Assembly (NCBI RefSeq): GCF_012272825.1
Contig: NZ_JAAWWS010000158.1
Location: forward strand, 15,956-48,255
Reading direction: 5' to 3'
Source: Wenzhouxiangella sp. XN79A
GTDB lineage: Bacteria > Pseudomonadota > Gammaproteobacteria > Xanthomonadales > Wenzhouxiangellaceae
DNA length: 32,300 nt
Shown: piece by piece, positions 28,899 to 32,300 of the stretch
How the letters are laid out: each line of letters starts with the position of its first letter
How positions within the stretch are numbered: position 1 is the stretch's first letter
Notes under the pieces: generated by a model
What the model saw: the letters and a program-made list of their open reading frames with translations, nothing else
Told to the model about the DNA's origin: nothing
Databases searched by the model: none
Made by a program: the position numbers and the translations under genes

Positions 28899-28954
28899 GG
28901 CGGGTCCGGAACGGGAAAACGGCGCACGATCATGCGCGAAACGGGCGCGGCGGG

Positions 28955-29209
28955 TCAGATCCGGAACAGGTCGTTGTCGTCGCGACGGGGGTCGTCGGAC
29001 TCACCGTCCTCGGAAGCATGCTCGGCGTCGTCGTCGACCTCGTACTCTTCGTAGGCCCACTCCTCTTCGTCGTCCGATGCTTCATCGTCCCAGGCCGGCG
29101 CGCCCCGACCCGGATGAGCCGGCTCGTCGTCGTGTCGATAGGGGTTGCGATCGTCGGCGCCCGGACCTGCAACACGCAGGAAGACCTGCGTCAGCAGGTC
29201 CGTTACGCT
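28955..29209 (-). CDS. Acidic 84-codon tail in the -1 frame of the ParA-like gene
   Basis: Open frame of 84 codons and a TGA stop, in the -1 frame relative to the ParA-like gene, starting at the slippery site. It encodes [15 protein letters not shown], then a highly acidic stretch (for example [20 protein letters not shown]) and ends DDNDLFRI. Between the ParA stop and its own stop this frame contains no ATG, GTG or TTG. The nearest possible separate start is a GTG at 29255-29257, inside the ParA gene, where GGAGGA touches the GTG and so is too close for normal initiation. The simplest reading is that this is the C-terminal extension of a frameshifted ParA of 296 residues. An independent overlapping gene of 100 residues, or a sequence error, remains possible. 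Confidence 0.6.
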
Positions 29210-29215
29210 TTTCCC
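29163..29215 (-). other. Candidate programmed -1 ribosomal frameshift signal
   Basis: Slippery heptamer GGGAAAA (29215 down to 29209) is in the phase G-GGA-AAA, the X-XXY-YYZ form. A 7-base spacer GCGTAAC contains the zero-frame stop (TAA, 29205-29203). Then comes a two-tier stem-loop: an 8-bp outer stem (29201-29194 with 29170-29163) and a perfect 7-bp inner stem (29191-29185 with 29180-29174) with a TCTT loop. Shifting by -1 reads directly into the acidic tail frame. The hairpin has no T-run after it, so it does not look like a terminator. Confidence 0.65.
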
Positions 29216-29844
29216 CGGGACTTCCGGCTGGTGATCCAGTGGACGATGGTTTCCCACTCCTCCCAGTCGTGCTCGGCCATGTAGGCCGGGAGGTCGTTGA
29301 CCGACAGGCCGCTTTCGAAGGCGCGCACGTAGTTCATCGAATCGCGCAGGCGTCCGACGACCGGTGCCTTGTAATGTTCGAGAAAGCCTTTCAGCTCGCG
29401 GTAGATGATGGTGTGCGGCTTGACCCGGTTGGCGATCAGGCCGACCTTGGCTTCGCCCTCGGCGATGGGCTTGAGCGAGAACAGGTGGCCGAGGAAGCGG
29501 TGGGCGGCGTTCATGTCGATGTACGACGGCAGCACCGGAATCAGCACCGTCTGGGCGCGGCGCACCAGGTTGCCCATTTCGGGGCCGTGAATGCCGGCCG
29601 GCGAGTCGAGGATCAGGAAATCGGTGCCGGACGGCGCGCGAACCGGCCCCTCGGCTGCGTTCAGCGAAACGATCTCCGGGTAGTCCTCCGGGCGTGTCGC
29701 ACTCCAGTCGGCCGAGGACTGCTGCGGATCGAGATCCCCGAGTGCGACCCGGTGGCCTTCCCAGGCCAGCGCGACGGCGAGATTGGTGGCGATCGTGGTC
29801 TTGCCGCACCCGCCCTTGGCGTTCAGGACTGCAATCGTGCGCAT
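29203..29844 (-). CDS. ParA/MinD-family P-loop ATPase (small type)
   Basis: A 213-residue ATPase of the ParA/MinD superfamily. The deviant Walker A motif is AKGGCGKTT, with the signature lysine Lys10 and the P-loop Lys15. [13 protein letters not shown] (switch I region) and [10 protein letters not shown] (Walker B) follow. Such proteins dimerise on ATP and use DNA or the membrane as a matrix for positioning cargo. No ParB or centromere-like repeat is seen nearby, so the cargo is unknown and an orphan positioning role is more likely than chromosome segregation. The ATG at 29842-29844 has a strong AAGGAG at good spacing. The gene ends ...SRGKA-stop at a -1 slippery site, after which a frameshift would add 84 acidic residues. 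Upstream are a lipoprotein and a thioesterase gene, downstream a Ycf46-like ATPase gene. Confidence 0.9.
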
Positions 29845-29893: not shown

Positions 29894-30322
29894 TCAGCGG
29901 CTCCGTGTCACGTCCGGAAGGCCCGAATGCAGCATCCAGCGTTCGCGCTCCTCGTCCCAGCGCCAGGATTCCACGTACTCCACGCTCCGTTCCCGGGCGG
30001 TGTGAACGTGATACAGACGCAGCTCCACCAGGCGATCCATGCCGCTGCCATCCTCGATCGCGACGATCTGCCGGACCCGGTACTGGCTGACCTGGAACTG
30101 CTTGAGGCGGTCCACGTCGAGCTGGCTGATCGGGTTGTCGACCAGCCAGTCCGGGTGCATGAAATCGACCAGCGCGTCGAACTGGCTCCAGCGAACCAGC
30201 GCCTCGTAGCGCTGCAGCGTCTCGGTCTGGCGCTGCTCCTGCGAGCCGGTCACCGGGCAGCCGGCCAGCAGCAGGCCGGCCAGCATCGCCAGCACCAGGC
30301 GGGCAGTGGCTTGAGTCTTCAC
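29894..30322 (-). CDS. Hypothetical lipoprotein
   Basis: A 142-residue predicted lipoprotein. A short basic N-terminus and hydrophobic segment end in the lipobox LAGC (Cys22). The mature domain is rich in aromatic and charged residues (FMHPDWLVDNPISQLDVDRL, VESWRWDEERERWML). It resembles small NTF2-like or cystatin-like alpha+beta folds, but no family is assigned with confidence. The start is a GTG at 30322 overlapping the thioesterase stop (GTGA), so the two are translationally coupled. It probably belongs to the same transcript as the ParA-like and Ycf46-like genes. Confidence 0.82.
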   Translation of the reverse strand: MKTQATARLVLAMLAGLLLAGCPVTGSQEQRQTETLQRYEALVRWSQFDALVDFMHPDWLVDNPISQLDVDRLKQFQVSQYRVRQIVAIEDGSGMDRLVELRLYHVHTARERSVEYVESWRWDEERERWMLHSGLPDVTRSR

Positions 30323-30807
30323 GAGGGCAGGTCTCCCGGGTTCATGGCCAGGCCAGCATACCGGGCCTCGAGGCGGGCCGCTACCGCATCGCCGTCGGGG
30401 CCGGCGAGAACGATCTCCGGCGCCAGCGCCAGCCGTCCCTTGCCGCGGGCGCGAACGCCGTCGAGGAACTCGGCCACTGCGTCCTCGGCCGGCCAGTCGC
30501 ACACGGCCCGGAAATCCTGCGTCACCGGCGCCAGGAAGCGCACCTCGCAGCGGCCGATGACCAGCTCGGCGGCCAGTCCGGCGCGGCGCAAGGCCAGCCG
30601 GGGCAGCGACCAGCCGGCCAGCGTCATCAGCGACATCATCGCGCCGCCGAACGCCGTGCCCTTGTCGTTGACGTTGGGTGCCAGCGGTGCGGTCAGTTCG
30701 ATGCCGGCCTCGTCGAGCCGGGCGATCGCCAGCCCCATCGCGGCGCCCAGCGGGATCTGCCGGGTCAGGGTGTCGGTCAGCCAGCGGCATTCGTCGGAGT
30801 GGGGCAT
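30319..30807 (-). CDS. Hotdog-fold thioesterase (YiiD C-terminal domain type)
   Basis: A 162-residue single-domain protein of the putative thioesterase group (YiiD_C, PF09500 type). The central helix segment NVNDKGTAFGGAMMSLMTLAGW is the family hallmark. It carries the N and D-K-G-T residues that occupy the place of the hotdog active site. EVRFLAPVTQDFRAVC is a typical hotdog beta-strand pair. It likely hydrolyses an acyl-CoA or acyl-ACP thioester; the substrate is unknown. It is the first gene of the minus-strand operon and diverges from dusB across 97 bp. The start is the ATG at 30805-30807. Confidence 0.85.
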   Translation of the reverse strand: MPHSDECRWLTDTLTRQIPLGAAMGLAIARLDEAGIELTAPLAPNVNDKGTAFGGAMMSLMTLAGWSLPRLALRRAGLAAELVIGRCEVRFLAPVTQDFRAVCDWPAEDAVAEFLDGVRARGKGRLALAPEIVLAGPDGDAVAARLEARYAGLAMNPGDLPS

Positions 30808-31915: not shown

Positions 31916-32300
31916 TCCGCGAGCAAGCTCCCTCCAGCAGTCGATTCCGGCGAGACGCTGCTTCCGCCTGTTGGAGGCCGCTTGCGGGCGAAGGGTGGCG
32001 GGGGCGGTTCGCGCGCAAGCGCCCTCCAACAGGTGGATCTGGCGGAGGTTCCTGTTGGAGGCCGCTTGCGGGCGAAGGTCGGCCCGGCCGGTTCGCGAGC
32101 AAGCTCCCTCCAACAGTCGATTCCGGCGAGGCGCTGCTTCCGTCTGTTGGAGGCCGCTTGCGGGCGAAGGGTGGCCCGGCCGGTTCGCGAGCAAGCTCCC
32201 TCCAACAGTCGATTCCGGCGAGACGCTGCTTCCGCCTGTTGGAGGCCGCTTGCGGGCGAAGGGTGGCGGGGGCGGTTCGCGCGCAAGCGCCCTCCAACAG
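31916..32300. repeat. Array of nine alternating REP elements, 92-bp period
   Basis: Nine 25-bp elements alternate in orientation: 31916, 31968, 32008, 32052, 32092, 32144, 32184, 32236 and 32276 (starts). Forward elements read CTGTTGGAGGCCGCTTGCGG... Reverse elements read TTCGCGAGCAAGCTCCCTCC... or the variant TTCGCGCGCAAGCGCCCTCC... Each forward-reverse pair encloses a 15-bp spacer, and pairs are joined by a conserved 27-bp spacer, once shortened to 19. The unit repeats every 92 bp, except one 84-bp step. The array begins 10 bases after the dusB stop and runs off the window. The paired palindromes are the BIME arrangement of REP elements. Confidence 0.9.

Follow-up and report, generated by a model that had tools for sequence, protein, structure and literature searches.

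A candidate programmed -1 ribosomal frameshift site at the end of a ParA-family ATPase gene in Wenzhouxiangella

The end of a ParA-family ATPase gene in Wenzhouxiangella sp. XN79A is very probably a programmed -1 ribosomal frameshift site, from which two isoforms are predicted. The gene lies within a stretch of 32,300 nucleotides, which is referred to here as the window. An earlier note on this DNA had proposed a programmed frameshift that gives ParA two alternative C-termini, and comparison with related genomes supports that proposal at the sequence level through a conserved heptamer and spacer, a covarying hairpin, and a sister clade that carries the tail in frame. To our knowledge, few frameshift sites in the host genes of bacteria have been firmly proven. 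PMC4066793 reports 69 candidate frameshift gene clusters in enterobacteria.

The ParA gene and the layout of its 3' end

A sequence motif, family profiles and the fold of an orthologue all identify the window gene as a ParA/MinD-type ATPase. ATPases of this type share a deviant Walker A motif, KGGxGKT, which is read directly in the window protein as KGGCGKT. Two Pfam families, CbiA (64.7 bits) and AAA_31 (53.1 bits), match it above their cut-offs, and the profile NF041546, named 'ParA family partition ATPase', scores 132.8 bits, which is below its curated cut-off of 180. The nearest solved relative by sequence is ParF/ParA of plasmid TP228. ParF is the top fold match (TM-score 0.75/0.83) to the AlphaFold model of the Wenzhouxiangella limi orthologue, a model of that protein and not of the window's own. 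The features at the gene end are as follows.

29203..29844, minus strand: ParA-family ATPase open reading frame, 213 aa, ending SRGKA-TAA (direct read; Pfam)
29255..29257, minus strand: -1-frame GTG that arises from the conserved ParA Glu-Trp; candidate internal start under a rival reading
29209..29215, minus strand: slippery heptamer G_GGA_AAA, in phase (direct read; comparison of carriers)
29203..29205, minus strand: frame-0 TAA within the spacer, overlapping the -1 codon GTA, which is no start codon
29162..29202, minus strand: stimulator-like hairpin, outer stem 29202-29194/29170-29162, inner stem 29191-29185/29180-29174
29162..29206, minus strand: conserved core of the -1-frame tail, 15 residues (carrier alignment; frame-match score)
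28955..29161, minus strand: acidic extension of the -1 frame, in the window only, 68 codons plus TGA (codon score)

The final ParA codons read CGG GGA AAA GCG TAA. G29215 closes codon 210, and GGA (29214-29212) and AAA (29211-29209) form codons 211 and 212, placing the heptamer in phase. The spacer occupies the seven nucleotides 29208-29202 of the minus strand and contains the TAA, and the hairpin loop lies at 29184-29181. The earlier note had described an in-phase GGGAAAA at 29215-29209, a 7-nt spacer holding the zero-frame TAA, a stem-loop at 29201-29163 with an 8-bp outer and a 7-bp inner stem, a -1 frame open for 84 codons, and products of 213 and 296 residues. Direct reading reproduces this description exactly to the base and adds a ninth, outermost pair to the outer stem, 29202-29162. 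The hairpin has a minimum free energy of -36.8 kcal/mol, with a z-score of -6.3 against 100 mononucleotide shuffles, and window positions 28900-29400 match no Rfam RNA family up to E = 1. Past the heptamer, the -1 frame of the minus strand runs from SVTDLL to DLFRI and closes at TGA 28957-28955, giving a predicted frameshift product of 212 + 84 = 296 aa.

Conservation of the heptamer and hairpin

At least 154 loci, comprising 124 distinct ParA genes, were gathered through protein searches (relatives, family, order and class), region fetches, and a scan of named genomes that contributed its best 80 matches; 30 of the 154 loci were dropped for carrying a gene identical to one already kept. Near relatives from the named-genome scan are mostly listed as Wenzhouxiangella or Wenzhouxiangellaceae. 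Some are listed only as Gammaproteobacteria, and one locus of the window's genus (L075) is listed under Lysobacteraceae. The close set consists of 40 ParA genes, 36 from the window's family (L001-L036) and four from the same order (L037-L040). Within it, 18 rows have a -1-frame tail (the carriers), six have an in-frame tail, 14 are tail-less and two are odd (L006 and L028). Carrier labels were given on visual inspection of the tail peptides, not under a blind rule, and the heptamer was visible at the time. Among named genomes, W. limi (L093) has an in-frame tail and W. sediminis (L089) has none, and the named carriers are metagenome-assembled. In two tail-less rows, L032 and L034, the contig ends 13 and 28 nt past the stop, so the label is based on the absence of the heptamer and on the few codons present. 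No tail was recognised in the remaining 84 distant ParA genes, whose products are about 203-219 aa long and in many cases stop close to 'KRSQP'; these include five genes from the window's family (L041-L045, 47-52% identity) that lack a tail and were kept off the tree.

Another 17 genomes share the window's layout of heptamer, spacer, hairpin and -1 frame, although L007 among them is without the 5' stem arm, and ParA identity to the window among the 18 carrier genomes ranges from 67 to 100%. Together with the fold score of the hairpin, this recurrence exceeds chance. L007 was excluded from ungapped alignments, which therefore use 17 of the 18 carriers. A search pattern derived from the alignment, GGGAAARNNNTRACGRAYCTG, which misses carriers L007 and L011, occurs once per genome in 16 of 43 family genomes, each time spanning the end of the ParA match, and in only one of 369 class-drawn genomes, namely the window's own (G000).

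The heptamer is conserved beyond coding need. Every carrier has G_GGA_AAR, written as GGA AAG in 13 and GGA AAA in five, and GGA is invariant (18/18), whereas it encodes 27 of the 281 Gly residues of codons 1-203 in the carrier ParA genes. Codon invariance of this kind is seen in only 2 of the 81 columns of these genes whose amino acid is invariant (Met and Trp excluded). Between the last ParA Trp and the stop, neither the 22 close non-carriers nor the 84 distant genes hold a GGGAAAR in phase. With homopolymers allowed, other heptamers of the form X_XXY_YYZ stand near the gene end in three of the 22 non-carriers (GGGGGGA in L006, CCCGGGC in L029 and AAAAAAG in L038) and, from the last Trp to the stop, in none of the 84 distant rows. 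Because these three non-carriers have such a heptamer without a -1 tail, a slippery form alone says little. In L038, a tail-less gene from the same order, the in-phase A_AAA_AAG sits right before the stop and the -1 frame shuts after about 10 codons. An overlapping A_AAG_GGN is also present in 7 of the 18 carriers. According to PMC4066793, G_GGA_AAG is one of the three most efficient heptamers in E. coli given a stimulator, and V_VVA_AAR is placed in the efficient class. The same paper describes earlier E. coli work in which G_GGA_AAA, the heptamer of the window, was inefficient, and lists CCCGGGC as one of three motifs under its threshold.

In 17 of the 18 carriers, the stem starts 6-7 nt past the heptamer, within the 5-8 nt downstream at which stimulators generally begin, according to PMC4066793. 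Across the 17 aligned carriers, the outer stem is paired in 92.8% of 153 cells, and pairing drops to 18-47% when the partner column is slid by 1-3 positions. Nine outer-stem cells carry double changes (GC/AU and CG/UA), compared with a shuffled mean of 3.3; one of 500 shuffles is equally high, and the covariation score itself was reached in none of the 500. Two further measures, the number of pairs with a double change (three, as high in 100 of 500 shuffles) and the number of further pair types (seven, 462 of 500), are not unusual. A fold z-score of -2 or lower, from mononucleotide shuffles, is found in 13 of 18 carriers, none of the six in-frame rows, 2 of the 12 tail-less rows with enough sequence, and neither odd row. 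The in-frame clade has z-scores from -1.3 to +0.8, and all six of its rows have neither GGGAAAR nor the hairpin. In L007 (positions 2130-2191), an in-phase deletion of 9 nt has taken away the 5' stem arm, but the heptamer is untouched and the -1 frame stays open. The tail-less row L040 has a strong hairpin of its own (z -3.8), unrelated to that of the carriers, right after the ParA stop. A Shine-Dalgarno-like (SD-like) stimulator lies 6-17 nt upstream in 14 of 18 carriers, although not in the window's own gene. It is also seen in 5 of 14 tail-less rows, in both odd rows and in 11 of the 84 distant rows, and in none of the six in-frame rows.

The -1-frame tail, its history and its gene neighbours

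The conserved predicted product of the -1 frame is a tail of 12-15 residues, often amphipathic in appearance and typically of the form xTDLLxxxxxRxxGP. It opens with [VLM]T[DN]L[LF] in 17 of the 18 carriers and with LIGDLW in L007, the carrier with the deletion. A matching peptide, LL[AS]AAMQRLT[GR][GA], is encoded in frame 0 in the six rows of the in-frame clade. Scored against these six in-frame tails, the carrier tails have a mean BLOSUM match of 18.7 in the -1 frame, -2.3 in frame 0 and -2.9 in the +1 frame; the -1 match beats 95% of its own shuffles in 13 of 18 carriers, and frame 0 is slightly higher in L018 and L020. Over 14 tail codons, stops interrupt frame 0 in 8 of 17 carriers and neither the -1 nor the +1 frame in any of the 17. 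Parsimony steps at the three -1 codon positions number 45, 27 and 56. Tail codons 8, 9 and 12 are hydrophobic in 50 of 51 cells, a value reached in 8 of 300 null draws, whose mean is 39.4. The earlier note had called for orthologues to be checked both for the signal and for protein-level selection in the tail. The heptamer, stem and -1 frame did prove conserved; the tail pN/pS of 0.74 in the -1 frame, a weak test in which 126 of 1000 column shuffles reach this value, falls short as proof of selection, with frame 0 at 0.81.

The mean helical moment is 0.51 in the -1 frame versus 0.38 and 0.23 in the other frames, with only 7 of 18 peptides beating their own shuffles at 0.05, a mixed result as evidence for an amphipathic tail. 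The AlphaFold model of the in-frame W. limi orthologue is confident in the core, and its tail is loose, with a short helix, H217-225, at pLDDT ~42. The -1 reading of 28958-29257 matches no Pfam or NCBIfam family up to E = 1. The two odd rows have ends of their own. L006 (genome G011) encodes a tail-like peptide, GLIQRLQKVFGLM, in frame 0 past its TAG stop and beside a run of GGGGGGA in phase, which may point to a different route of recoding or to a tail in decay. L028 has a different in-frame C-terminal extension at ParA residues ~210-235, also amphipathic-looking (SAIGHWLSTAIKLAM).

For the earlier note, the point of the frameshift was a strongly acidic tail, perhaps recruiting the AAA ATPase encoded downstream, and neither part of that idea holds up across genomes. 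The acidic extension looks translated in the window, since it has the best codon score of the six frames (0.332 per codon versus 0.276 for the last 66 ParA codons, with training on the window alone). The 68 codons were found in one of six genus genomes, which is the window's own, and at one of 154 loci, and are a local add-on found only in the window genome. An acidic tail as a conserved feature was rejected: the other 17 carriers have tails of 15-23 residues, and the window tail has 83 (84 with the preceding Ser). The downstream AAA ATPase was matched at only 2 of 154 loci, L001 and L002, a count for which the close-set stretch past the stop spans 13-1497 nt, such that copies farther away would escape; it was rejected as a general partner. 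The conserved neighbours stand upstream of ParA.

29897..30268, minus strand: lipoprotein-like open reading frame upstream of ParA, named from its LLAGC stretch; start codon provisional
30319..30807, minus strand: YiiD_C thioesterase-like open reading frame upstream of ParA (Pfam YiiD_C, 121.3 bits)

The lipoprotein-like frame, which belongs to no Pfam family, has a tblastn match in all 18 carriers, and the thioesterase-like frame is matched in 17 of the 18. Farther along, window positions 32051-32300 hold a tandem array of period 92 (2.7 copies, 93% matches) that runs to the window end.

On the tree of the ParA core, for which the state count leaves out L006 and L028, the -1 state occurs on both sides of the deepest split within L001-L036. 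The in-frame rows form a single clade (100/99) sited among -1 rows, its link to the adjoining -1 row being weak (86/36), and the tail-less rows of the L001-L036 group fall in three places. With the odd rows excluded, the three tail states amount to five changes, a count that weak support on a number of inner branches makes approximate. Most simply, the -1 arrangement would have arisen once, at the base of L001-L036, with later losses and one in-frame conversion. Loss of the tail in several lineages on this tree implies that the tail is dispensable.

Competing explanations, proposed mechanism and known systems

Several other explanations of the gene end can be weighed against these data. The frameshifting could be real and serve regulation only, through pausing, mRNA stability or ParA level, leaving the tail peptide without a job. 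The weak pN/pS and the loss of the tail in several lineages would fit, but hydrophobic positions are maintained through codon change, and a six-row clade without the signal keeps a matching tail in frame; we regard this as unlikely. Less likely again is a separate small protein, translated from an internal -1-frame ATG or GTG, or else by ribosomes that reinitiate on the codon across the stop. The GTG that the earlier note placed at 29257 is indeed present, and all 18 carriers have ATG or GTG at this position, -51; this codon, however, stems from the conserved ParA Glu/Gln-Trp, so that no other cause is needed. At the stop overlap, ATG (3 of 18) or GTG (2 of 18) could serve as a start, whereas the codon is GTA or TTA in four carriers and CTG in nine. 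Initiation accounts for neither the invariant GGA-AAR nor a hairpin at frameshift spacing, and the sister-clade tail is fused to whole ParA.

A reading of the hairpin as a transcription terminator, with a -1 frame that is open by chance in a G+C-rich genome, is very improbable. In favour of this view, the hairpin lies close behind the stop, overlapping open frames are common in the window, and the +1 frame is open across the tail too (17/17). Nevertheless, over the 12 nt past the stem, T runs have a maximum length of 0-2 in 15 of 18 carriers and of 3-4 in L003, L008 and L010, and on this ground the terminator reading was rejected; a terminator scan of the window stretch found none, and chance leaves both the GGA invariance and the matching in-frame tails unexplained. 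Finally, an error of sequencing or assembly, or a pseudogene tail with a frameshift, has a negligible claim, because although the G/A run is a typical site for the single-base error that the earlier note had warned of, the same frame relation in 18 genomes of 67-100% ParA identity contradicts it.

A programmed -1 frameshift would operate as follows. Most ribosomes would terminate at the TAA, releasing ParA of 213 aa. A share of them would be stalled by the hairpin while GGA occupies the P site and AAA the A site; these would slip to GGG and AAA, bypass the TAA and append the tail, whose conserved core would be a short, often amphipathic helix-like peptide. Two isoforms are likely given the known rules of -1 frameshifting and the conserved signal; the slippage itself and the coexistence of both forms we infer from the known behaviour of such signals. 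By analogy with the C-terminal helix of MinD, it is about evenly likely that the tail anchors the isoform carrying it at the inner membrane or on a partner. A tethering tail would allow the frameshift to fix the ratio of free to tethered ParA, in which case translation itself would set the soluble/bound balance of a positioning ATPase. Slightly more tentative is a fuller scheme, in which frameshifting would equip a fixed fraction of ParA with a membrane- or partner-binding helix, one gene would supply a tethered, MinD-like form and a soluble, ParA-like form that possibly co-dimerise, and one lineage would have made the arrangement permanent by a frame-restoring change. Heptamer and hairpin occur together in 17 of the 18 carriers; with the in-frame clade as a natural control and the natural lineages of loss, cause and effect are directly testable.

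Among the matches listed from the open PMC literature, none describes ParA frameshifting by title or abstract start, in agreement with the earlier note, which knew of none, and a search of that literature found no paper that combines Wenzhouxiangella with frameshift. The word 'ParA' occurs neither in PMC3711429 nor, as a whole word, in PMC4066793, nor in PMC5009743 up to character 300,000 of 475,107. The predicted site resembles those of dnaX and the IS3 family (IS911) in its in-phase X_XXY_YYZ heptamer, in its hairpin, here at 6-7 nt, and in an upstream SD-like element, here in 14 of 18 carriers and not in the window. It differs in belonging to another gene family and in that the ParA shift, just before the stop, would add a short conserved tail. 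The dnaX frameshift yields the shorter product. The carboxysome protein CsoS2 is similar in that -1 frameshifting creates two C-terminal isoforms of one host protein, as described in PMC5009743; its shifted product ends 3 residues past the shift, whereas the ParA shift would lengthen the protein. ParF/ParA of TP228 and small ParA proteins are the top sequence and fold matches, and the solved ParF chain, at 206 aa, is shorter than the tailed ParA form. MinD shares the ParA/MinD fold, and its short C-terminal peptide is paralleled by the predicted ParA tail, often amphipathic in appearance. In MinD, this C-terminal membrane-targeting helix tethers the protein and is always present, whereas the ParA helix would be optional and made by frameshifting, with putative membrane binding.
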